From Desulfolithobacter dissulfuricans (lineage in GTDB: Bacteria; Desulfobacterota; Desulfobulbia; Desulfobulbales; Desulfobulbaceae): a stretch of DNA of 64,000 nucleotides. The position numbers were made by a program, and so were the translations under genes. This document shows positions 47,047 to 59,043 of the stretch, in pieces. How positions within the stretch are numbered: position 1 is the stretch's first letter; every line of letters starts with the position of its first letter. The stretch spans positions 3,496,001-3,560,000 of the forward strand of contig NZ_AP024233.1 of assembly GCF_025998535.1 (NCBI RefSeq), read 5' to 3'. A model generated the notes under the pieces. The model saw only the letters and a program-made list of their open reading frames with translations, had not been told where the DNA came from and searched no databases.

Positions 47047-47763
47047 TCAGCCGGCTACCAGCATAATACCCATCGCGATCAGGAACCAGTAGATCAGCCG
47101 GATGTAGGTATCCCGCCGGATTCTGCCATACACCCGCGAGCCCAGCATGGTGCCGGCGAGCACGCAGGGTGCGGCCACAGCAAAATAACCGAGAACCGTG
47201 GAGGTGGTGATGCCGCTTGTCGCATGGACCGTCACCGTCACCACGCCATTGAGGACAAAGAAACCGGTGAGGGTGGCTTTGATCACATCCTTTTTCCAGC
47301 TGGTCATGGAGGTATAAATGATGACCGGCGGTCCGCCGGCGCTGAAAGCGGCGCCAATGGCCCCGGTGAGAAAACCGGCCAGGATGGCCCAGAATCGTCC
47401 CGGGTTCACTGGCCTGGGCCGCACCAGCAGGTTGTAGGTGGAGTAGGTGATCAGCAGCACTCCGATACCGCTACGGATGACGTCGGAATCCACCTTCTTG
47501 AGCAGGGTCACTCCGGCCAGGACACCGGGAATGGAGCCCAGCAGCAGAGGCCGGATCCGGTGCCAGTGGAGATGGTCCCGCAGCTGCCAGCCGAGATAGG
47601 AGGTGATGACCATTCCGCTCAGGGTACAGAGCGGTACCGCGGTCTTGACGTCCATCAGCAGGCTGAGCAGGGGGATGGCCACCAGGGCGGAACCAAAGCC
47701 GGTCAGCCCCTGGACAAAGCCGGCGGCCAGAAAAACAGTACCTGTAAGAAGGGCGGTTACCAT
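47047..47763 (-). CDS. TauE/SafE-family membrane transporter
   Basis: A 238-residue protein with about eight helices and the family repeat GFVQGLTGFGSALVAIPLL (N-terminal half) and GFLTGAIGAAFSAGGPPVIIY (second half). Family members export sulfite, sulfoacetate or other organic anions; this one has no clear substrate. ATG at 47763 is preferred over a TTG seven codons earlier, but neither has a good ribosome site. Convergent with pgsA and divergent from tRNA-Leu. Confidence 0.85.
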   Translation of the reverse strand: MVTALLTGTVFLAAGFVQGLTGFGSALVAIPLLSLLMDVKTAVPLCTLSGMVITSYLGWQLRDHLHWHRIRPLLLGSIPGVLAGVTLLKKVDSDVIRSGIGVLLITYSTYNLLVRPRPVNPGRFWAILAGFLTGAIGAAFSAGGPPVIIYTSMTSWKKDVIKATLTGFFVLNGVVTVTVHATSGITTSTVLGYFAVAAPCVLAGTMLGSRVYGRIRRDTYIRLIYWFLIAMGIMLVAG

Positions 47764-47885
47764 GGAAAGTGGACCTGTGGGCAAAGGGAATATCAGGGGG
47801 ACACAGGCCGGCCATTCTATCGCAGGTCAGGTGGGGTTGTCAATTGTCCGGGCCAGAGCTGAGCCTTGCCGGCCTTGAATTATCC

Positions 47886-47925: not shown

Positions 47926-48012
47926 GCCGGAGTGGTGAAACTGGTAGACGCACCGGACTCAAAATCCGGCGGAGGTAACTCCGTGACGGTTCGACTCCGT
48001 CCTCCGGCACCA
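47926..48012 (+). tRNA. tRNA-Leu (CAA)
   Basis: An 87-nt class II tRNA with encoded CCA. Acceptor GCCGGAG (47926-47932) pairs with CTCCGGC (48002-48008). Anticodon stem CCGGA/TCCGG encloses loop CTCAAAA, anticodon CAA (reads UUG). A long variable arm (GGAGG..CTCC) and the TTCGACT T-loop are present. Followed at once by a terminator. Confidence 0.97.
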
Positions 48013-48825: not shown

Positions 48826-49671
48826 TCAGCGGAGGATAAGCACCGAAGACCGTGTGTTTTCCAGCAGTTTGTCCACCAGGCTCTGGGAAAAGAGTTTCTT
48901 GATCAGTGATTTTTTCCCCATCCACAGGGCGACAATGGCTTCCCTGGACGAGGTGGCCACATAGTCTTTCAGGGCCGTGCTGTCCAGCAGCTTGACCCAG
49001 GCGCTTATCTCCCGGTCATTGTAGTACTTGAGCAGTTCGACGATTTTCTTTTCCTCGTCGCCCTTGCTGCCCTTGCTGTCTTTCAGGCCGACAATCTTGA
49101 GCCCGGCCTCGTGCAGGGTGACCAGCTGATTGATCAGCTCCAGAGAATCCTGGCTGATCTTGCTCTGGTCCAGGATGGAAACGATCTGTTTGGGGCTGCG
49201 CGGCTCCTTGATCACCAGGACCGAGCAGGGCGCATCCTCGGCCACCCGCAGGGGCACGCTCATCTCTCCTTCCCACTCGCAGCCGAGCTTGCCGCTGCAG
49301 CCCATGACGATCAGGTCGCAGGCCGTATCGGTGGCCGCCGCAACAATCTGTTTGGCGATGTTGCTGCTGCCGATGCGGATGGTGAAGCTCTTCATGCCCT
49401 TGGACGATGCCGACCAGATGCCCTTTCCCGCCGGCTCCAGCGTCCGGGTTTCAAAGGATTTGTAGGGCAGGTCCTCGGGACCGAAGTAGTTGAAGACGTC
49501 CTGCTGGTACTTGAACAGGGTATTGACGAGTTCCGAGTCCGGTTTCTTGCTCTTTTTCCCCTGAATCCCGAGAAAGACGAGATCGGCCCAGGTGTTCTTG
49601 GCCAGTCGGGCCACATCCTTGAGTATATTTTTGCTGTATTCTTTCGTGTCCAGCGCTACCAGTATTTTCAT
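48826..49671 (-). CDS. universal stress protein (tandem UspA domains)
   Basis: A 281-residue two-domain Usp. First domain begins MKILVALDTKEYSKNIL and holds the nucleotide-loop block VMGCSGKLG..SVPLRVAEDAPCSVLVIK (about residues 121-154). The second half (about 158-281) keeps the fold but its loop is degenerate, ending SSVLIL. Strong ribosome site AGGAGG before the ATG. Last member of a same-strand series with a second Usp, a response regulator and the PEP-synthase-like gene; a palindromic repeat lies between it and that second Usp gene. Confidence 0.85.
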   Translation of the reverse strand: MKILVALDTKEYSKNILKDVARLAKNTWADLVFLGIQGKKSKKPDSELVNTLFKYQQDVFNYFGPEDLPYKSFETRTLEPAGKGIWSASSKGMKSFTIRIGSSNIAKQIVAAATDTACDLIVMGCSGKLGCEWEGEMSVPLRVAEDAPCSVLVIKEPRSPKQIVSILDQSKISQDSLELINQLVTLHEAGLKIVGLKDSKGSKGDEEKKIVELLKYYNDREISAWVKLLDSTALKDYVATSSREAIVALWMGKKSLIKKLFSQSLVDKLLENTRSSVLILR

Positions 49672-49695
49672 GGTTTCCTCCTGATCATGCTCTAT

Positions 49696-49889
49696 CAGGC
49701 CGTTGAAAAAGATGATACGGCGTCAAAATTCGGCTCAGGTAAGCGACCGAAGGGAGACTACGGGTAAGCGAGCTCGAAGTCTGCACGTATCTGCGTAACT
49801 CCGAAATGCTCATGTACTCCTGTACACTGCGCTTTTTCGCCTTATTTTTCCTGGTCTCATCCTTGCTCGTTACGTTTTTCAACAGCCTG
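49696..49889. repeat. 194-bp palindromic-end element, CAGGC(T/C)GTTG family
   Basis: CAGGCCGTTGAAAAAG at 49696 and inverted CGTTTTTCAACAGCCTG ending 49889 form the ends. No gene inside. It occupies almost the whole gap between the two Usp genes. The ends match the 56-bp element at 35990-36045, so this is a dispersed family. Confidence 0.7.
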
Positions 49890-49949
49890 CTGTTCTTGTC
49901 CTTTGGTTGCAATTGCGCACCGGTCAGTGTGTCGAAGTCAGACGACCAC

Positions 49950-50744
49950 TCAGCGGACCAGCATGACCGTGGACAGGGTGTTGGCAAGCGCTTCCATGCG
50001 CATGCTCTTCCTGGTCGGCAGGGTGGACGAGACAAAGACATAGTCCTTGAGATGGTCTCCCACCTGTTCCGGGGTTCCCAGAAGGACCGTGACATTCTCC
50101 GGCGTCTTGCCCGCCTCTTCCAGGAGCTTTTCCGCCTGCTGCAGGGAGGAGCCGGCCTCTCTCTTTTCCAGAAACGTCAGGGACTCGCTCTCCCTGAACT
50201 TGAAGTAGACTAGGTCCACACTGAGCGTGGAGTCGCCGATGATAGCCATGGTTTTCTCCACCAGGACCTGCGGATCCACGCTGTCGGCGCAGAGCAGGGC
50301 GCAACGGGTGCTCAGCGAGAGGTTTTTCACCACCATCACCGGACAGGGCGCCTTGGTGTATACCGGCGAGGAAATCAACTGGTAAAAGGCTTCGCTGTCG
50401 GCGGTGTTCAGGTAGCCTTCCATATAGAGGTTGTAGCCACCGGAACGCAGTTCATAGGAGATCTCCTTGGCCTTGTCGCCGACAAAGACCTTGGGGCGGC
50501 CGGCCAGGGGACAGTGTATCTTTTCGGTCCGGAGCATCCGTTCGATGAGCTGCCTGCCCGAAGAGGCCACTCCGTTTTCCCAGGTGCGGCGAACCCATCC
50601 GGTTCCTGCCTGCTCGTTGGGATCGGGCTCTTCCACATGGGTTACATACAGCTCCATATCAATGAGTTTGTACAGGTAGGCCGCATATCTCAGGGCAATG
50701 CTCGACGATAGATCCTCATCTATGTACAGTAACGTCTTTATCAT
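49950..50744 (-). CDS. universal stress protein-like, second copy
   Basis: A 264-residue Usp-type protein with start MIKTLLYIDEDLSSSIALRYAA and a first domain ending APCPVMVVKNLS, then a shorter second half ending STVMLVR. The canonical ATP loop GxxG is not clear in either half, so nucleotide binding is uncertain. Start at 50744 has GAGGTGAG upstream; the frame is open 28 codons further without similarity. It follows the response regulator by 109 bp. Confidence 0.78.
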   Translation of the reverse strand: MIKTLLYIDEDLSSSIALRYAAYLYKLIDMELYVTHVEEPDPNEQAGTGWVRRTWENGVASSGRQLIERMLRTEKIHCPLAGRPKVFVGDKAKEISYELRSGGYNLYMEGYLNTADSEAFYQLISSPVYTKAPCPVMVVKNLSLSTRCALLCADSVDPQVLVEKTMAIIGDSTLSVDLVYFKFRESESLTFLEKREAGSSLQQAEKLLEEAGKTPENVTVLLGTPEQVGDHLKDYVFVSSTLPTRKSMRMEALANTLSTVMLVR

Positions 50745-50853
50745 GAATCTCACCTCACTTTCACGGTCTGTGGTACCAGACGGTTTTCGTCTGTCTTCGA
50801 TACACCGTCTGTCTTCGACACACTGCATACCTCTTGCGGTATGGTGCGTGCGT

Positions 50854-51237
50854 TTATCTGTTTTTAATGTTGGCTTCAGCCTTTTTGATCACCTCGGTGA
50901 TCTCGCCGAGCTTGAATGGTTTGGCCAGGAAGTCGAACACGCCCTTGCGGAAGGATTCCTTGGCCGTGTCCATGGTCGCAAACCCGGTAATGACGATGAC
51001 TTCGGTGCCAGGGTACAGCTTCTTGACCTCGGTCAGGAACTCCATGCCGTCGATTCCTTCCATCTTGAGATCGGTTATCACGATATCGAACCGTTTTTCC
51101 CGGATCCGGGCCAGGGCATCACGGCTTCTGGTAAAGGTTTCAACTTCATAACCCTTTCTTTCCAGGGATGGTTTCAGTCGTTTGCTGACGATGGGTTCAT
51201 CGTCTAAAATCAGTATATTGGTCTTGTTGTTGTCCAT
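50854..51237 (-). CDS. single-domain response regulator (CheY-like)
   Basis: A 127-residue receiver domain: acidic pocket LDDE (11-14), phospho-acceptor Asp 56 in VITDLKMEG, Thr in VITGFA and Lys in FLAKPF. No output domain. Start at 51237 lies 41 bp inside the end of the PEP-synthase-like gene, after AGGAGG. Probably passes phosphate or blocks a partner by contact; the sensor kinase at 57589-59043 or an unlinked one could be its donor. Confidence 0.9.
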   Translation of the reverse strand: MDNNKTNILILDDEPIVSKRLKPSLERKGYEVETFTRSRDALARIREKRFDIVITDLKMEGIDGMEFLTEVKKLYPGTEVIVITGFATMDTAKESFRKGVFDFLAKPFKLGEITEVIKKAEANIKNR

Positions 51238-53809
51238 CGTTCTCCTCCATAATGGATAGGATTTTCCGGTAGTAGAAATCGATCTTCTGATCGTCCACCA
51301 TGCGGACGTCAAGCTGCCTGGTAAAGCCCACCAGCAATCCCAGCAGATAGAGCCGCTTGATCATTCCTTTTTTATCCAGCCGTTTCAGCCGTGCCACCAG
51401 CATATCTCCCTGGTGTTGGGTCACAAAATCATAATGGGTCAGGACCCTGTCGAGCAGTCTGGTCCTCCGTTTCCGACGCACCGTGTCGGTCACCCCGCCG
51501 GAAAAGCGGAAGTAGGCGTGGTTGTTTTTGATGTTCTCCGTCACATAGGCGTCAATGATGGTGAAATGGTATCCCAGCCGCAGGCTGAGGTTGACGTACT
51601 CGGCCGAAACAACCGCCAGGTTCTGGCCCACCTCCTGGGGGTTGCTCAGCTCGGCGGAAAAGGTCCTGGTCAGGCTGGACATGAAGCTGCCCATGTCCAC
51701 CGGGGCCGGCGTCATGTCCCAGGCTCCGGGAAAGGACATTCCGGTCAGCAGGGCCTGCATGGGGTCTGAGATGATCTGCTCGGGAAGCACGAAATGATCC
51801 TCGGTTCCGGAGATCCCGCCGCCGATATCGATCAGGATCAGGTCCAGGGGAAAGTCCCATTTCAGCCGGCCGGCCACCGTGTCCGGATCATGGGAATGGT
51901 AGTAGTTGCGGTCGATCAGGGTTGCCACCGCCTTTTCATGGATGAACCGGGTGATGTCGTGATAGGTCTGGCAGTATTGCGGTTTGAAGGTCTCCGCATT
52001 GGGATCCAGCAGGTTGAGAGGCTCGATTTTCTTGAGAATCCTCCGCAGCAGCCGGTACTCGTAGGTCTCTTCGATATGTTCTTCGCACAGGGCAAAGAGC
52101 TCCAGCTCCCTGACCGTGCCGCGGTAGACCACCCGCTCTTCGGTGTCCAGGGTGATTTCCTCGCCTTCGTGCAACAGGCTGGTGGCCTCGTCGGTGTTGA
52201 AAAGCGCTGGAATTCGAAATTCGCGGGCCACGGTGGCCAGGTGGCCGGTGGCGGCGCCCACGTCGGTGATAAAGCCGACCGCCCTGGGGATCACGCGTGC
52301 CAGCATGGGCGAGGCATACCTTGCCACACCAATGGCGCCATCGGGAAAGTTGTCCAGGTCGCTGTCGGTGCGGATGAAATGAACCGGGCCCACGGCCACT
52401 CCTTCCATGGCAGCCACGCCCCTGTCCCTGAAGATGACCGGGTATCTCTCGGGCAGGTCGGCCAGTTCCGAGGCCCGGGGCGCGTTCTTTCTTTTCAGAC
52501 GCAGGGGCCGGGCCTGGAGGATCACTATCTCGTCCTTGTGATCGATGGCAAATTCGATGTCCTGGGGCGTCTTGAAATATTTTTCCAGCTGCATGGCGAT
52601 CTCGGCCAGGCGGTGTCGCTGGTCCGCGGTCAGGGAGGGCCGGGTCCGGTAGTACTGGGGAACCGGTTCCAGGTTGGTCCCCTGCTCGCCGCAGGCCACC
52701 AGATTGAGGTCCTTGCGGACCACGTTGAGCTCCCGCTCCACATGGGGTGACCGGCGGTCGAGGACAAAGGTGTCGGTGGCTGTCTGACCGGAGACCACCG
52801 GTTCACCCAGGCCCCAGCTGGAGTTGATGACCAGGGTCTCTTTCTCCGGATGGACCGGATCGATACTGTAGATGATGCCGCTGGCCTTGGCCGGGATCAT
52901 CAGCTGGCAGGCCACGGACATCAGAACCTCGTTTTCCCGGAAATCCTTCTGCTGCCGGTACTCCATGGCCCGAATGGTGTAGGCCGAGGCCACCACGTCC
53001 CGGTAGTTGGACACCAGTTCGTCCAGGGCTACGTTGAGCCGGCTCAGGTACTGGCCGGCAAAGGAGGAGGAGCTGTCCTCCCCGTAGGCGCTGGAACGCA
53101 CGGCAAAGCGTGGCGAGCTCTCGCCCGAGAGGTTGGCGATATGCCGGGCGGCAAAGATCATTCTCTGTTCCAGTTTGGGTGGAATGGCAGCAGACAGGAT
53201 CAGTCTCCGGATGGTCTGGGAGGCCTCATCCACCTGGATCTCTCCCCGGTGCCAGCTATCGGTTATCGCCGCTATCTGGGGCTGGAGCTTGTTGTAGTCG
53301 AGAAAATACTGATAGGCCGTGATGCTGATGGCAAAACCGAGCGGAATCTTGAGTCCGAGCACATTGCCTATCTCGGCGATATGAGCATTTTTACCGCCCA
53401 CCGCATCCATAAGGTCGCGGTCGATCATGGGATAGGGGAGGATGAAATCCGGTCGGGGGGCGATGATCTTTCCCTCCAGCATGGCCTGGATGTCGCCCTC
53501 GATCCGCTCGAAGGCGTCATAGAGCCCGGGATACTGCTGCTGGGTCATCTTGTTGATGAGATAGATCAGATCCTTGACCATGGCCGATATCTTGCTGCAG
53601 GTTGTCTCGATGTAGTTGGAATCAAATATGTAGTCGCCGCTGAGCTTGTCGTTGGCCTCGGCAACATGGTGCAGGATCCGGTTGTTCAGGTCGATGAGTT
53701 CCTGGAAATTGGCAAACAGGGTCCTGAAGGAGTCTGTCGCAGACAGACGAGCCGTTTCAGGGTGTCTCCGCAGGAGGTTTTGTTTGATCCAGTCAAGAAT
53801 TTTTCTCAT
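51197..53809 (-). CDS. PEP synthase-like protein: ATP-grasp plus swivelling His domain, novel C-terminus
   Basis: An 870-residue protein. Residues 1-125 helical, unknown. Residues about 130-437 form a PEP/pyruvate-dikinase ATP-grasp domain with GGKNAHIAEIG (138-148), RSSAYGEDSSSSFAGQY (238-254), GLGEPVVSG and LQARPLR. Residues about 460-565 form the swivelling phospho-His domain, His 523 in GAATGHLATVARE. The usual C-terminal PEP-binding TIM barrel is not seen; instead about 300 residues (570-870) of unknown fold follow, with LILIDIGGGISG. It may phosphorylate a small molecule or protein by the ATP-to-His route, as rifampin phosphotransferase does, rather than make PEP. Confidence 0.8.
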   Translation of the reverse strand: MRKILDWIKQNLLRRHPETARLSATDSFRTLFANFQELIDLNNRILHHVAEANDKLSGDYIFDSNYIETTCSKISAMVKDLIYLINKMTQQQYPGLYDAFERIEGDIQAMLEGKIIAPRPDFILPYPMIDRDLMDAVGGKNAHIAEIGNVLGLKIPLGFAISITAYQYFLDYNKLQPQIAAITDSWHRGEIQVDEASQTIRRLILSAAIPPKLEQRMIFAARHIANLSGESSPRFAVRSSAYGEDSSSSFAGQYLSRLNVALDELVSNYRDVVASAYTIRAMEYRQQKDFRENEVLMSVACQLMIPAKASGIIYSIDPVHPEKETLVINSSWGLGEPVVSGQTATDTFVLDRRSPHVERELNVVRKDLNLVACGEQGTNLEPVPQYYRTRPSLTADQRHRLAEIAMQLEKYFKTPQDIEFAIDHKDEIVILQARPLRLKRKNAPRASELADLPERYPVIFRDRGVAAMEGVAVGPVHFIRTDSDLDNFPDGAIGVARYASPMLARVIPRAVGFITDVGAATGHLATVAREFRIPALFNTDEATSLLHEGEEITLDTEERVVYRGTVRELELFALCEEHIEETYEYRLLRRILKKIEPLNLLDPNAETFKPQYCQTYHDITRFIHEKAVATLIDRNYYHSHDPDTVAGRLKWDFPLDLILIDIGGGISGTEDHFVLPEQIISDPMQALLTGMSFPGAWDMTPAPVDMGSFMSSLTRTFSAELSNPQEVGQNLAVVSAEYVNLSLRLGYHFTIIDAYVTENIKNNHAYFRFSGGVTDTVRRKRRTRLLDRVLTHYDFVTQHQGDMLVARLKRLDKKGMIKRLYLLGLLVGFTRQLDVRMVDDQKIDFYYRKILSIMEENDGQQQDQYTDFRR

Positions 53810-53890
53810 TACCTGATAATCCTGTCATCCAAAGGGGGTAGCTGCGTAACCCTGCGTCGTAAAACTCATATTAGGCAGTCTTCACTTGTG

Positions 53891-53924
53891 GGTACCTTGC
53901 AAAAAGGCAATTTTGCAGGATACC
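53891..53924 (-). promoter_or_regulatory. inverted repeat between the TIGR02186-like and PEP-synthase-like genes
   Basis: GGTACCTTGCAAAA (53891-53904) and TTTTGCAGGATACC (53911-53924) form an imperfect 14-bp stem with a six-base loop in a 218-bp gap. It may be a partial terminator that sets lower expression of the downstream genes, or an RNA processing site. Confidence 0.45.
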
Positions 53925-54027
53925 CCTGGTTATACCTTTATCATCAAACGGGCGGTTGCCTTGAAAAAGTTGTTTTTTCCTTCCTGGCAGGCGTTCGGTT
54001 GTTCAGGGCAACCGCCCCCGGAGGTGC

Positions 54028-54813
54028 TCAGTGGGCGCCGCCCTTGCCCTTGAACAGCATGCCCATCAGGAGTCCGGCCGCAATGGCGATGCAGACCGCG
54101 ATGATGCCGTACATCAGGGCGTGGTTGTAGGCCATGTTGGCGATCAGGGCCGGCATGCCGGTGAGCTCGATGGTCAGGGTCTCACCGGTCTGTCCACTGA
54201 CCCTGCCGTCACGTACCGCGTAGCACTGGACCTGATACTGGCCCGGTTTCATCTTCGGCGGTATGGTCAGGGTGGTGGAGAAGTGGCGCTCGCCGGCAGG
54301 GGTGTCGGTGTACCTGACCGTACCGGCATGGTCGTCATAGACCCCATATTTCTCCATCAGCTTGACATACTCGCCAAGGACAAAGGGTTTGTCCTCCGAG
54401 GCCGGTTCCAGGGTCACCTCCTGCTCCAGGGCCTGGTAGCCCAGCCCCAGTTCCGGTGACAGCAGTTCGCTGCCCCTGTTTTCCGGGACATAGAGCATGT
54501 ACACCGCCGGGGTGTTGCCCAGGGTGACATCGGTTTTATTCATCCACAGAAAGCCGAAGACCTTGCCCTTTTCCTTGAGATGGACGTCTTCCCTCGGGCC
54601 CATGACCCGGATCACCACGTCGGCGTCAGCCGGTACCGTGCCGCTGGCCTCAAGGGTGGTGCCGTTGTAGAATGCCGGTATCCGGATCACACTGGTCGAG
54701 AGCTCCATCTGCACCTGGTCCGCTGCCAGCACCGTGGTGGCGGAGGCCAGCAGCAGCACCAGCGCAGCGACCAGGAGAGTCGGTTTCATATAGAACAGGT
54801 TCTTTTCTTCCAT
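54028..54813 (-). CDS. TIGR02186-like (Alph_Pro_TM) membrane protein
   Basis: A 261-residue protein with an N-terminal signal sequence (about 9-30), an extracytoplasmic beta-rich region (VQMELSTSVIRIPAFYNGTTLEASGTVP) and one C-terminal membrane helix (about 232-255). This layout and the VIRVMGPRED block fit the TIGR02186/Alph_Pro_TM family, whose members are commonly next to TauE/SafE genes, as here (2-bp gap). Function unknown; probably a partner of the exporter. Strong ribosome site AAAGGAGG is inside the end of the tauE-like gene. Confidence 0.78.
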   Translation of the reverse strand: MEEKNLFYMKPTLLVAALVLLLASATTVLAADQVQMELSTSVIRIPAFYNGTTLEASGTVPADADVVIRVMGPREDVHLKEKGKVFGFLWMNKTDVTLGNTPAVYMLYVPENRGSELLSPELGLGYQALEQEVTLEPASEDKPFVLGEYVKLMEKYGVYDDHAGTVRYTDTPAGERHFSTTLTIPPKMKPGQYQVQCYAVRDGRVSGQTGETLTIELTGMPALIANMAYNHALMYGIIAVCIAIAAGLLMGMLFKGKGGAH

Positions 54814-54815
54814 GA

Positions 54816-55748
54816 TTAATGTCCTCCTTTTAAGGCAACCATGATGGACGGGGTCATCAGCAACCCGGCCATCATCTTCACGCAGACGAGCAGTACCAGA
54901 CTGGCCAGCAGGATTTTGAGCTGGTCGCCCTTGAGTACCTTGCTGATACCGGTGCCTATCTGGGCTCCGACCGTGGAGCCGAGCAGCAGCAGAACCGCGA
55001 GGACAAAGTCCACGGTATGGTTGCTGTAGGACTGCATGATAGTGACGTTGACACAGGTAAAGAGGATCTGGAAAAGGCTGGTTCCCACCACCACATGCAT
55101 GGGCATCCGCAGCAGGTAGACCATCACCGGTACCATGATGAAACCGCCGCCCACGCCCATGATGGCTGCCAGGATGCCGACCATGATGCCGAATCCCAGG
55201 GGCAGGAGGACAGATATTTCGGCTCCTGATTTCTCGAACCGGTACTGGAACGGCAGTTTTTTGAGAAAGCTGCCGCTGGAGGCCGGTTTTTCCTTCCCCG
55301 GTGTCCCGGCCGCGGCTTCCTTTCTGGCCCGGCGCAAGCCCTGCAGGCTTTCAACAAACATATAGCTGCCGACGCCGCCGAGCATGAGGACATAGGTGAT
55401 GGCAATGAGAAAATCGGCGTTGCCCATGGCCCGCAGCAGCTTGATAATCTGGACTCCCAGGGTGCCTCCGGCAATACCGCCGATCAGGAGCATGAGGCCC
55501 ATGGGGATATCCACGTTACCAAGCCGCATATGGGCCAGGGTGCCCGAAGTGGAGGCGCCGACGATCTGGTTGGAGTCCGAGGCGGCCGCCACTGTCGGCG
55601 GAATACCAAACATCATCAGCAGCGGTGTCATCAAAAAGCCGCCGCCAACGCCAAAAATTCCCGACAGCAGGCCGACAAAGCCACCCAGGCCTAAAATGAT
55701 CAGAATGTTCACACTGTTGCCGGCAATAGGTAAGTACATGTGTATCAT
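54816..55748 (-). CDS. TauE/SafE-family sulfite/organic anion exporter
   Basis: A 310-residue membrane protein with about eight helices. Family repeats: LSGIFGVGGGFLMTPLLMMFGIPP in the first half and AAIMGVGGGFIMVPVMVYLLRMP in the second. A cytoplasmic loop of about 40 residues lies between. Start at 55748 is chosen because GGAG lies 12 bases upstream; other in-frame starts are at 55739 and 55766. First recognised gene downstream of a sigma-54 promoter. Substrate may be sulfite or a sulfonate; not proven. Confidence 0.87.
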   Translation of the reverse strand: MIHMYLPIAGNSVNILIILGLGGFVGLLSGIFGVGGGFLMTPLLMMFGIPPTVAAASDSNQIVGASTSGTLAHMRLGNVDIPMGLMLLIGGIAGGTLGVQIIKLLRAMGNADFLIAITYVLMLGGVGSYMFVESLQGLRRARKEAAAGTPGKEKPASSGSFLKKLPFQYRFEKSGAEISVLLPLGFGIMVGILAAIMGVGGGFIMVPVMVYLLRMPMHVVVGTSLFQILFTCVNVTIMQSYSNHTVDFVLAVLLLLGSTVGAQIGTGISKVLKGDQLKILLASLVLLVCVKMMAGLLMTPSIMVALKGGH

Positions 55749-55861
55749 GACAAATTGAATCTCCAATACATAAGTTTGATTTCACGTGAGCAATGTCCCC
55801 TTCCTGTGGAGCCAGAGAGGAGGCCATCGCGCTGACAACCTTGTTGCGTCGCCGGCTGACG

Positions 55862-55894
55862 CTACGTGAAGTGGTCTGTTTTCTCTGCTTCCAT
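55862..55894 (-). CDS. possible 10-residue leader peptide
   Basis: A very short frame (MEAEKTDHFT) with a near-perfect ribosome site AAGGAGG six bases upstream, inside the leader between the sigma-54 promoter and the tauE-like gene. It could be a regulatory leader peptide or the residue of a lost gene. No similarity can be judged at this size. Confidence 0.3.
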   Translation of the reverse strand: MEAEKTDHFT

Positions 55895-55988: not shown

Positions 55989-56004
55989 AGCAACCGTCGT
56001 GCCA
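55989..56004 (-). promoter_or_regulatory. sigma-54 (-24/-12) promoter
   Basis: Read on the minus strand: TGGCACG-ACGG-TTGCT, an exact match to the TGGCACG-N4-TTGCW consensus. It points toward the tauE-like gene, about 240 bp away, and lies about 140 bp from a palindromic activator site. The activator gene is directly upstream and rpoN is in the window. Confidence 0.88.
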
Positions 56005-56127: not shown

Positions 56128-56154
56128 GTTCATGTTTCAGGTTGAAACATGAAC
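56128..56154. promoter_or_regulatory. 27-bp palindrome, likely upstream activator site
   Basis: GTTCATGTTTCA (56128-56139) and TGAAACATGAAC (56143-56154) are perfect inverted repeats around GGT. Position about 140 bp upstream of the sigma-54 promoter and just after the NtrC-type gene is that of an enhancer for a dimeric activator. A TGTTTCA half site recurs at 56215-56221. Confidence 0.8.
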
Positions 56155-56218: not shown

Positions 56219-57592
56219 TCAATGTGAACTGTCCTGGTCCGCGTTGGCGCCGGAGGCCAACCCATATTTTTTCATCCTCCGCCACAGGGTGGTGCGGGAC
56301 ATCTTGAGTATCTTGCTGGCCGCTTTCATGTTGTAGCCGGTTTTTTTGAGCACTTTCCTGATATAGCGCTTTTCCATCTCGTCCAGGGGGAGCATCTCCT
56401 GGACCAGGATATCGTCCCAGGCCAGTTCCAGCAGATGGGGTGGCAGGTCCCTGGCCGTCAGCTTGTCCGATTCGGTCAGGGCCACCGCATGCTGGATGAT
56501 GTTTTCCAGTTCACGGATGTTGCCGGGAAAATGATACTGCATCAGCAGGTTCAGGGCCTCCGGGGTGATACCCTTGATTTTCTTTTCAAAGGCCCGGTTG
56601 GATTTTTCGATGAAATGCTGCACCAGCAGGGGGATATCCTCGCGTCGTTCCACCAGGCGGGGCAGGTGGATGGAGACCACGTTGAGGCGATAGTAGAGAT
56701 CTTCCCGGAAAAGGCCTTCGCGGATCTGTTCCTGCAGGTCGCGGTTGGTGGCGGCGATGATCCGGATATTGAGATCAATGGGCCTGGTGCCGCCTACCCG
56801 CAGGACCTGGCGTTCCTGGAGGACATGGAGCAGTTTGACCTGCATGGACAGGGACATTTCACCGATTTCGTCCAGGAGTACCGTGCCGCCGGCGGCCGAT
56901 TCAAAGAGGCCGACCTTGGTCGACACCGCGCCGGTGAACGAGCCCTTTTCATGGCCGAACAGTTCGCTGCAGATGAGTTCCTCGGTGAACCCGCCGCAGT
57001 TGAAATAGACAAAGGGATGTTTTTTTCTCGGTCCCAGTTCGTGGATGGCCCGGGCGGTGAGCTGCTTGCCGGTGCCGGTCTCGGCTTCCAGCAGGACATT
57101 GCAGTTGACCTGGGCCACCTTGCGGATGGTCTCGAAGATGGCTCGCATGGACTTGGAGTTGCCGATGAAACCCGGGATCAGACAGTGCTGGTCCATCGAA
57201 CCGCGCAGGGTCCTGTTTTCCTGCCGCAGCCGGACCTTTTCCGCCGCCCGCTCGGCCATCAGGCAGATGTCATGCTTGCGGCACGGCTTGGTCAGGTAAT
57301 AAAAGGCGCCTTCCTTGGTGGCCTCCACCGCATTTTCGATGCTGCCATGGCCGGTGACGATGATAGCCTCGGTTTCCGGGCTGGTGAGCCGCAGCTGGTG
57401 CAGCACGTCCATGCCGCTGATCCCCGGGAGCTGCATGTCGATGAAGACGATATCAAAGGGATTCTCCTGCATCCGGGCGAGAAAGGGTTCACCGGCGTTG
57501 AACACTTCCACCTCGAAACCGGCCTGCTCGAGAAACCGTTTGATCATGCGCCGGGCCGTGGCCTCGTCATCGATGACAGCAATACGAATCAT
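56219..57592 (-). CDS. NtrC-family sigma-54-dependent response regulator
   Basis: A 457-residue activator: receiver (1-120, phospho-Asp 52 in FIDMQLPG), AAA+ domain (about 140-370) with Walker A ETGTGKQL, the sigma-54-contact loop GSFTGA (a common variant of GAFTGA), Walker B GGTVLLDEIGEM, and a Fis-type helix-turn-helix at the end (MKAASKILKMSRTTLWRRM). It overlaps the kinase gene by 4 bp. Predicted target: the palindrome and -24/-12 promoter right after it. Confidence 0.94.
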   Translation of the reverse strand: MIRIAVIDDEATARRMIKRFLEQAGFEVEVFNAGEPFLARMQENPFDIVFIDMQLPGISGMDVLHQLRLTSPETEAIIVTGHGSIENAVEATKEGAFYYLTKPCRKHDICLMAERAAEKVRLRQENRTLRGSMDQHCLIPGFIGNSKSMRAIFETIRKVAQVNCNVLLEAETGTGKQLTARAIHELGPRKKHPFVYFNCGGFTEELICSELFGHEKGSFTGAVSTKVGLFESAAGGTVLLDEIGEMSLSMQVKLLHVLQERQVLRVGGTRPIDLNIRIIAATNRDLQEQIREGLFREDLYYRLNVVSIHLPRLVERREDIPLLVQHFIEKSNRAFEKKIKGITPEALNLLMQYHFPGNIRELENIIQHAVALTESDKLTARDLPPHLLELAWDDILVQEMLPLDEMEKRYIRKVLKKTGYNMKAASKILKMSRTTLWRRMKKYGLASGANADQDSSH

Positions 57593-59043
57593 GCTTTGTT
57601 GTCCTGTTCTTCCCTGTAACAGGGCAGGTAGACTGAAAAAGTGGTGCCCTTGCCCTGCTTGCTGGAGACCTCGATATAGCCGCCATGCCGTTTGACAATG
57701 CCATAGACAATGGCCAGTCCCAGCCCGGTACCCTTGCCGGCCTCCTTGGTGGTGAAGAAGGGGTCGAAAATCTGGTCGATGGCCTCCGGCGGGATGCCGG
57801 GTCCGGTGTCTGTCACGTCCACCCGGATCATGTCGTTATCCGCCCGCCTGGCCCGCAGGGTGATGGAGCCGTTTTCGTCCATGGCCTGTTCGGCGTTGAT
57901 CAGCAGGTTGAGGAAGACCTGCTGCAGCTTGTTGATGTCGCCCTTGATCCGGGGCAGCATGTCCTCGATGTCCTTGGTCAGGGTGATGTTGTGGATGCGC
58001 AGTTCGTTGTCGATGAGATCAACGGTCTTGTGGAGCACATAATCCAGGTGGAGGGGCTGCATCTCCGGCGGCTGGACCCGGGAGAAGTCGAGCAGGTTCT
58101 TGACGATCTTGCTGGCCCGCTCGGTCTGGGCCATGATGTCCTCCAGGATCTCCATCTGCTCTTCCCTGTCCAGGGCGTCATACTCTTCCAGCAGGGTATC
58201 CGTTGACAGGGAGATGTTGTTGAGCGGGTTGTTGAGCTCATGGGCGATACCCGAGGAAAAGGTCCCGATGGAGGCCAGCTTCTTGGACTGGAGCAACTCC
58301 TCCTGCTTTTCCTCCAGAGCCACGGCCATCCTGTTGAAGCCTTCGATCAGCTCGGAGATCTCATCCCTTTCGTCCTGAACTTCCTTGATGGGGGTGAAGT
58401 TGCCCTTCTGCAACTCGGCCGTGGCCTTCTGGACAGAGGAGAGACGGTTGAGGACGTTTCTGGTCTGAAAATACATGGTCAGAACACTGCCCAGCACCAG
58501 GGCGGCCGGGACAAAGGTGTACCAGAACAGCAGTTCCCGCAACCCCCGGGAGAGGTTCTCCCGCTTGATGCCGACCAGCTCCGAGGCGGTGTCGGCCAGG
58601 GCCTTGCCGTGCATGCGCAGGACTTCGCTTTCGCTTTTGGCCAGCACCATGCTCTTGTCCTCTTCCTTGGGCCAGTGCTTGAATATCTTTTCATAGTCCA
58701 GATAATGCTGCCGGAACTGCCTGTACCTCTCCATGCCGATCAGCTTCGTAATCTTCGGTCCCAGCACGGCGATGTTTTCTTCTATCTTGTCCAGGTAGAG
58801 GCCGGCATTTTCCACGTTGTCGCTGCCCACCCCCAGCAGGATATCCTTTTCATAGCGGCGCAGTTCCAGGATGTCGCGCAGCAGGTCGTCGAACTGCTCC
58901 ATGGTGATCAGCTTGTTCTCCAGGGAGACAATCTGGAACGAGTAGAGGGAGATCAGCATGAGAATGAAGGTAAAGGCAAGATAGTTGAGCAGGATCAACC
59001 GCTGTCGTATGGTGCATTTGCTGATCAGGCATCGAAGTTTCAT
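57589..59043 (-). CDS. membrane sensor histidine kinase
   Basis: A 484-residue kinase: helix 1 (about 16-38), extracytoplasmic sensor (about 39-172, helical, 4HB-like), helix 2 (about 173-193), HAMP, then HisKA with His 268 in [12 protein letters not shown] and an ATPase domain with [32 protein letters not shown]. This is the NtrB/ZraS-type arrangement. Signal unknown. It pairs with the adjacent NtrC-type regulator. Confidence 0.92.

Follow-up and report, generated by a model that had tools for sequence, protein, structure and literature searches.

The window analysed here is a 64,000-nucleotide stretch of Desulfolithobacter dissulfuricans DNA (contig NZ_AP024233.1, positions 3,496,001 to 3,560,000), part of a single-contig genome of 3,596,428 bases. 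Six open reading frames (ORFs) at 48826-55766, every one on the minus strand by the ORF list and Pfam, encode a TauE-family transporter, a PF09608 protein, a protein resembling phosphoenolpyruvate (PEP) synthase and other dikinases that we call PPSL, a lone receiver (REC) and two Usp proteins. An earlier note on this DNA had placed the same six genes on one strand behind a sigma-54 promoter, an arrangement borne out by the ORFs and by an exact -24/-12 site. Directly upstream on the same strand lie two further genes of the unit, for a histidine kinase and a sigma-54 activator of the NtrC type, which the earlier note does not mention with this module. Judged from sequence, the unit is real and widely conserved, and it is better called a sulfur-respirer transporter and phosphorelay operon than a general stress module; it probably controls sulfur-anion traffic across the membrane.

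The TauE and PF09608 genes are separated by 2 bp, PPSL and REC overlap by 41 bp when REC is taken from the ATG at 51237, and 109 bp separate REC from Usp1 when the latter starts at the ATG at 50744, a start that relatives have too. These two starts reproduce the overlap and the 109-bp gap given in the earlier note. Wider gaps lie between the PF09608 gene and PPSL (218 bp) and between Usp1 and Usp2 (278 bp), and in the terminator scan none of the gaps separating the six genes has a terminator-like site on the minus strand. The ORF list starts tauE at a TTG at 55766, and relatives point to an ATG at 55748 or 55739. Matches to sigma-70 promoters are at chance level (5 versus 5.1). The Usp1-Usp2 gap holds a repeat with matches of at least 87 bases at 13 other genome places (62 matches listed overall).

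The site TGGCACGACGGTTGCT upstream of tauE matches the general -24/-12 consensus of sigma-54 exactly, and a palindrome, TGTTTCA-N3-TGAAACA, is located 128 bp upstream of it. Control regions were compared across 60 modules, the window included, in which PPSL lies 3' of TauE on the same strand. The best upstream sigma-54 site reaches at least 9 of 11 positions in 40/60 modules, against 7/60 when these stretches are read on the other strand and about 9% of random windows from the same loci; a good site was not seen in 20/60. The palindrome pattern, derived from the window itself and then scored in the 60 modules, is matched at 12 or more of 14 positions in 50/60; random windows, some overlapping true sites, reach this in about 10% of cases. 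With a sigma-54 site and an upstream activator site both present and conserved, the region carries the predicted sequence marks of a sigma-54 operon.

The perfect palindrome exists as a single copy in the whole genome, at this module, and we read it as the putative site of a dedicated NtrC-type switch; the genome holds no second perfect copy that would indicate a wider regulon of the activator. Sites with one mismatch number two, and of the 45 sites obtained when as many as two mismatches are allowed, 33 are copies of a single repeated, mobile-element-like sequence. This sequence, TGTTTCA(A/G)TATGAAGGA, has several of its 33 copies spaced 2.09 kb apart (for example at 2476169, 2478260 and 2480351), resembling tandem copies of a mobile element. 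Between promoter and tauE, the window also contains an ORF of 10 codons that has a strong ribosome site. ORFs of 10 residues occur at the same region in L005, L036 and L037, all with a TAG stop, and in L039; a loose scan of 76 upstream stretches yields 28 ORFs of 8-12 codons in total, and the leader ORF may be due to chance.

Table 1. Features of the transporter and phosphorelay operon, in window coordinates.
Feature	Position	Strand	Basis
Histidine kinase with HAMP, HisKA and HATPase_c, probably the unit's sensor	57589-59043	-	Pfam
NtrC-type response regulator (receiver, sigma-54 AAA+, Fis HTH)	56219-57592	-	Pfam
Palindrome TGTTTCA-N3-TGAAACA, probably the activator's enhancer site	56133-56149	.	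Sequence, recurrence
Sigma-54 promoter TGGCACGACGGTTGCT	55989-56004	-	-24/-12 match
Possible 10-codon leader ORF, strong ribosome site	55862-55894	-	ORF scan
TauE/TSUP transporter, ends GGH	54816-55748	-	Pfam PF01925, relatives
PF09608 protein	54028-54813	-	Pfam; C-terminal His
PPSL, dikinase-like	51197-53809	-	PPDK_N and mobile His domain
C-terminal domain of PPSL	51200-52090	-	Conserved, without Pfam or PDB match
Standalone receiver (REC)	50854-51237	-	Response_reg; phosphorylation residues complete
Usp1, borderline Usp	49950-50744	-	Pfam score just below cut-off
Dispersed repeat, Usp1-Usp2 gap	49693-49889	.	Genome self-matches
Usp2, Usp protein	48826-49671	-	Pfam

Pfam matches agree with the labels TauE, PEP-synthase-like and receiver that had been assigned from the letters. 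TauE scores 160 bits against PF01925 (cut-off 32.6) and, judged by eye, is better conserved than the other five operon proteins. A further TauE-family gene, of ~245 residues, lies shortly downstream at 47047-47784, beside tRNA-Leu (47926-48012). The PF09608 protein reaches 151 bits against its family (Alph_Pro_TM; Pfam cut-off 24.5) and 81 bits against TIGR02186, short of the NCBI cut-off of 255; the earlier TIGR02186 label should therefore be softened, and the protein can safely be placed in PF09608 only. It probably comprises a signal peptide, a beta-sandwich and a C-terminal membrane helix; its structural model is weak (predicted local distance difference test score, pLDDT, 58), and the fold matches, often Ig-like beta-sandwiches, have low TM-scores and carry little weight. 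A C-terminal His ends TauE in 70/72 proteins, mostly as GGH, and the PF09608 protein in 72/73, with or without PPSL. The idea that GGH tails mark the transporters linked to PPSL was rejected, as pairs without PPSL carry them too.

Against the Usp family (PF00582, cut-off 24), Usp2 scores 46.9 bits and Usp1 23.6, 0.4 bits short, so that of the two Usp proteins named earlier one stands and the other is borderline. The receiver matches Response_reg with 103 bits. Among rows selected with a profile built from the window receiver, D37, D38, D81 and K131 are present in 56/56 and T109 in 55/56, with Ser in the remaining row. Its phosphorylation residues are complete, and the receiver is predicted to be of the working type.

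PPSL is composed of ~120 N-terminal residues, a PPDK_N domain at 135-444 (PF01326, ATP-grasp; 273 bits), a mobile His domain at 488-557 that carries H523 (PF00391; 59 bits) and a C-terminal domain at about 574-870. In an alignment of 105 rows, chosen by a profile of the C-terminal domain and with redundancy kept, H523, R529 and E530 are invariant (105/105), R238 occurs in 102/105 and E244 in 103/105. The invariance of the catalytic His agrees with the earlier description of an ATP-to-His protein, as predicted from the alignment. Equally invariant are H617, D618, H624, H748, G771, G772, R782 and D834 of the C-terminal domain (105/105). The PEP-binding domain PF02896, which the genome's own PpsA has, is absent from PPSL by Pfam, and identification of PPSL as a PEP synthase was rejected for this reason.

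In the window protein, the C-terminal domain, ~290 residues long, has no Pfam match with an E of 1 or less, and across 51 members it matches eight different Pfam families, one member each, with a best E of 0.013. Profile search detects no relative in the PDB, the one match having an E of 0.71, and hhalign against the C-terminal part of the genome's PpsA returns a probability of 0.1%. An AlphaFold model of PPSL from three sequences has a mean pLDDT of 37 and was not used. PPSL is accordingly best described as a protein predicted to have kept the ATP-grasp domain and the catalytic His, its PEP domain replaced by a conserved new domain. A second PPSL in the same genome lies in a run of genes (1136788-1145103; L055:6789-15104) for HPr, phosphotransferase system (PTS) enzyme I, an AIRS-family protein, PPSL, a dual-specificity phosphatase and an NtrC-type regulator; this setting amid PTS phosphocarriers would fit a phosphotransfer role.

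A scan of named genomes returned two relatives, a Desulfobulbaceae genome and a Desulfocapsa genome. Among distinct genomes of the same order and family that carry a PPSL relative, the 21 with the best scores, less G020, made up a first sample of 20. TauE-PF09608-PPSL is present in 19/20 of these loci, the exception being a 6.4-kb contig, and all six genes stand in the window's order in 10/20; the gene-neighbourhood comparison on which the earlier note had staked its operon beforehand finds the order in other genomes. In L005 and L042, kinase and activator follow Usp2 rather than standing upstream of the module, and their association with the module therefore outlives rearrangement. A histidine kinase is found near the module in many relatives, in varying order, and an NtrC-type regulator near many loci.

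A search with PF09608, made so that loci were not selected by PPSL, was positive in 51/297 genomes of the phylum and in 0/14 control genomes. Of the 59 places listed, 56 were examined as new loci, the other three, the window among them, being already in the set. A TauE gene is present at 56/56, a same-strand PPSL follows TauE in 39/56, and a receiver lies no more than 600 bp after PPSL in 37/39, giving TauE-PPSL-receiver in 37/56. Many loci also have a small gene 5' of tauE: of 27 candidate small ORFs, 21 have one or more relatives among the rest, and two of the three scanned with Pfam match Usp. A second sample of 20 loci, about one per family, was drawn from the PPSL list minus the places taken around PF09608 and contains 31 full PPSL genes, with a TauE-family gene within 6 kb of 26/31. 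The genome's own TauE-family places above cut-off number four, and on this basis a chance TauE-PPSL neighbourhood seems unlikely. A sister arrangement in the phylum (parts of L131, L136, L153-L169 and L186-L199) often comprises a Usp-like gene, a TauE of ~350 residues, DUF4881 and an unknown protein of 266 residues. Many of these loci have, in divergent orientation, a large sigma-54 activator with an adjoining PPSL; in L131 the activator has a weak Cache match. DUF4881 occurs in 39 of the 297 genomes, with PPSL in 39/39.

These neighbourhoods bear on what PPSL phosphorylates. The strongest rival to a signalling role is phosphorylation of a small molecule: PPSL would be a metabolic enzyme whose C-terminal domain binds and phosphorylates a small acceptor, perhaps the TauE substrate or a sulfate-activation product, in the manner of rifampicin phosphotransferase and its drug, and the receiver would be a separate regulator served by a histidine kinase. 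The invariant residues of the C-terminal domain do look catalytic, and other dikinase-like proteins modify small molecules; NCBIfam matches of PPSL to rifamycin phosphotransferase and prodigiosin ligase both fall far below cut-off. The near-constant receiver behind PPSL at the TauE-PF09608-PPSL loci argues against such an enzyme, as does the lack of any fixed catabolic enzyme in the unit across the loci of the PPSL and PF09608 samples, and we consider it somewhat unlikely. Alternatively, the upstream histidine kinase could phosphorylate the lone receiver as well, with PPSL as the receiver's phosphatase or sink. A kinase does lie within 6 kb of 43/51 PPSL in the PF09608-centred sample, and the sequence of the receiver is typical of its kind. 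Kinases of this sort, however, normally have the adjoining NtrC-type regulator as their partner, and we hold this arrangement to be quite improbable.

Distribution was assessed in the same 297 genomes, all of one phylum, of which 144 carry dsrA (143 above its cut-off); the host genome is dsrA-positive. The PPSL C-terminal domain is found in 107/297, and dsrA in 102/107 of these, the five misses being 62 to 80% complete. Among PF09608 genomes, 50/51 have dsrA (the miss is 62% complete) and 50/51 have PPSL. A dsrA genome is included in 37/37 PPSL families and 27/27 PF09608 families, versus 50 of about 93 overall, a total that is a reading of family codes; this family-level count is a better guide than genome-level hypergeometric tests, which assume independent genomes. 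Within this phylum, PPSL is almost confined to dsrA genomes, in keeping with the sulfur-anion link that the earlier note had suggested.

A FastTree tree of 155 PPSL was labelled by the type of the neighbouring TauE (59 have none within 2.5 kb). The label changes 19 times, versus 71 when shuffled, and by type 5 versus 49 times for PF09608-linked PPSL, 7 versus 18 for a second type and 8 versus 13 for DUF4881-linked PPSL, contrasts that near-copies inflate. PF09608-linked PPSL therefore largely form their own lines, and the other types are looser.

We tentatively favour, as a serious possibility, a sigma-54-induced sulfur-oxyanion transporter of sulfur respirers that is gated by a PPSL-receiver relay. 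The unit would be a dedicated operon moving a sulfur oxyanion, most likely sulfite or thiosulfate, across the inner membrane. The upstream kinase and NtrC-type activator would turn on the sigma-54 promoter via the palindrome, a step well supported by the control regions. From their families, TauE would act as carrier, in partnership with the PF09608 protein, which would be anchored in the membrane and have its beta domain on the outside. PPSL would phosphorylate its own mobile His from ATP, as PEP synthase does, and pass the phosphoryl group to the neighbouring receiver rather than to pyruvate, aided by the new C-terminal domain; the phosphorylated receiver would open or close TauE. The Usp proteins might conceivably serve as nucleotide-reading or adaptor subunits. 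Sulfate activation and reduction yield AMP and pyrophosphate, and oxyanion movement could be tied to the phosphate-energy state of the cell, a link that we offer as an idea only.

This reading is favoured because gene order, promoter and operator are conserved and the perfect operator is unique in the genome; because the ATP-grasp domain, the phospho-His and the receiver Asp and Lys are conserved and the PEP-binding domain is absent; because PPSL and PF09608 are nearly confined to dsrA genomes and the gaps lack minus-strand terminator-like sites; and because TauE type is clustered on the PPSL tree, strongly for PF09608-linked and weakly for DUF4881-linked PPSL. A bolder version would make PPSL a new class of signalling kinase, with a His charged by ATP, that reads the ATP/AMP/pyrophosphate state of sulfate activation and phosphorylates a receiver without a classical histidine kinase, gating a sulfur-anion transporter with two His-tailed subunits; we hold this to be unlikely.

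Mutant data come from a cluster of related make-up, and the word 'undescribed', which the earlier note had used of the module, was too strong. In two Desulfovibrio strains, Korte et al. (2014) report a 'nitrate cluster' (DVU0251-DVU0245 and Dde_0597-0605) that contains a TauE-like permease, a hypothetical protein, a PtxB-like protein, a histidine kinase, a receiver, a PPDK_N and mobile His protein and a phosphatase (PMC4001038). In that paper, 100 mM nitrate makes no difference to the growth of single mutants in DVU0246, DVU0247, DVU0250 and DVU0251, none of them gains on nitrite, and mutants lacking the TauE, receiver or dikinase-like gene share the same nitrate resistance. The cluster's published table lists a DNA-binding domain for neither the receiver nor the dikinase-like protein (PMC4001038). 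The authors propose a leaky thiosulfate transporter and give as unpublished data that G20 mutants are mildly sick on thiosulfate (PMC4001038). By analogy, the phenotype shared by receiver, dikinase-like and permease genes would be the best outside support for a relay acting on transport, and the common nitrate resistance on losing these genes of a similarly composed cluster is a further reason for favouring the gated transporter (PMC4001038).

Several observations weigh against the gated transporter. PPSL does not follow TauE at 17/56 PF09608 places, a few of which reach a contig end or have PPSL on the other strand, and G180, a PF09608 genome listed as 100% complete, is without PPSL; the TauE-PF09608 pair can therefore work without the relay. 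In the second sample, which covers other PPSL clades, a receiver stands directly 3' of PPSL in 1/31. PPSL is missing from 42/144 dsrA genomes, and the unit is therefore accessory, not needed for sulfur respiration as such. In the terminator scan, the plus-strand reading of the palindrome is a terminator-like stem followed by a T run; because the palindrome recurs upstream of promoters, we prefer to take it as a putative operator, and a double role is possible. The Desulfovibrio nitrate cluster has another order and other partners (PtxB-like, phosphatase), pooled and single-mutant results conflict for two of its genes (DVU0250, DVU0248), and mutants in DVU0245 remained sensitive, though the G20 homologue showed high fitness (PMC4001038).

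The same data bear on an envelope or oxyanion stress system, in which TauE would export toxic anions (sulfite, nitrate-like) and the Usp proteins and PPSL would tune the response. Usp genes recur beside these transporters, also as the small Usp-like gene before tauE, and molybdate phenotypes are reported for the DVU0539-DVU0545 cluster of Desulfovibrio, in which a kinase and regulator control two Usp proteins and a putative anion transporter (PMC10102598). Losing the nitrate cluster, however, protects from nitrate rather than raising sensitivity to it (PMC4001038), an outcome that export would explain less well than import or leak. We find a stress system improbable; the words 'stress' and 'redox' in the earlier note had the Usp name as their sole basis.

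The control of sulfite, thiosulfate and sulfate entry and exit in sulfur-respiring bacteria is poorly known. A PPSL nearly confined to dsrA genomes, with a new conserved domain and an adjacent receiver, offers a concrete protein pair and promoter to test. The nitrate-cluster paper suggests that mutations in that cluster may let strains escape nitrate dosing against oil-field souring (PMC4001038).

Compared with known systems, the window unit shares with the Desulfovibrio nitrate cluster, by published annotation of its composition, a TauE-family permease, a histidine kinase, a lone receiver and a PPDK_N/mobile His protein. Unlike the window, the cluster's published table has neither PF09608 nor Usp, and its dikinase-like gene measures 2235 bp versus 2613 bp (PMC4001038). 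The nitrate-cluster order was not seen across 149 genomes (family f54, which we guess to be that of Desulfovibrio; loci L131, L132, L151-L158, L168 and L186-L200 inspected), where the loci showed DUF4881-TauE-PPSL arrangements instead. DVU0539-DVU0545 resembles the unit in its kinase and regulator, two Usp proteins and anion transporter, and differs in that the transporter belongs to the PSE family and that PPSL is not among the genes named (PMC10102598).

TSUP/TauE transporters whose substrates are unproven in these sources are known from sulfate reducers; some belong to sigma-54 operons, and some are candidate carriers of sulfate or sulfite (PMC4641369, PMC5840216, PMC3949148). Among the open-licence papers that the literature searches listed, none was recognised as an account of the TauE-PF09608-PPSL-REC unit. 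PEP synthase (PpsA) shares the ATP-grasp and mobile His domains with PPSL, in which PF02896 is replaced by a domain without detectable similarity. Rifampicin phosphotransferase and prodigiosin ligase, in which the acceptor domain is exchanged, are built from the same dikinase modules as PPSL, which scores far below the cut-offs of both. A cluster of related make-up is already in print, and PPSL with its new domain is the part of the window unit that deserves the attention of specialists.

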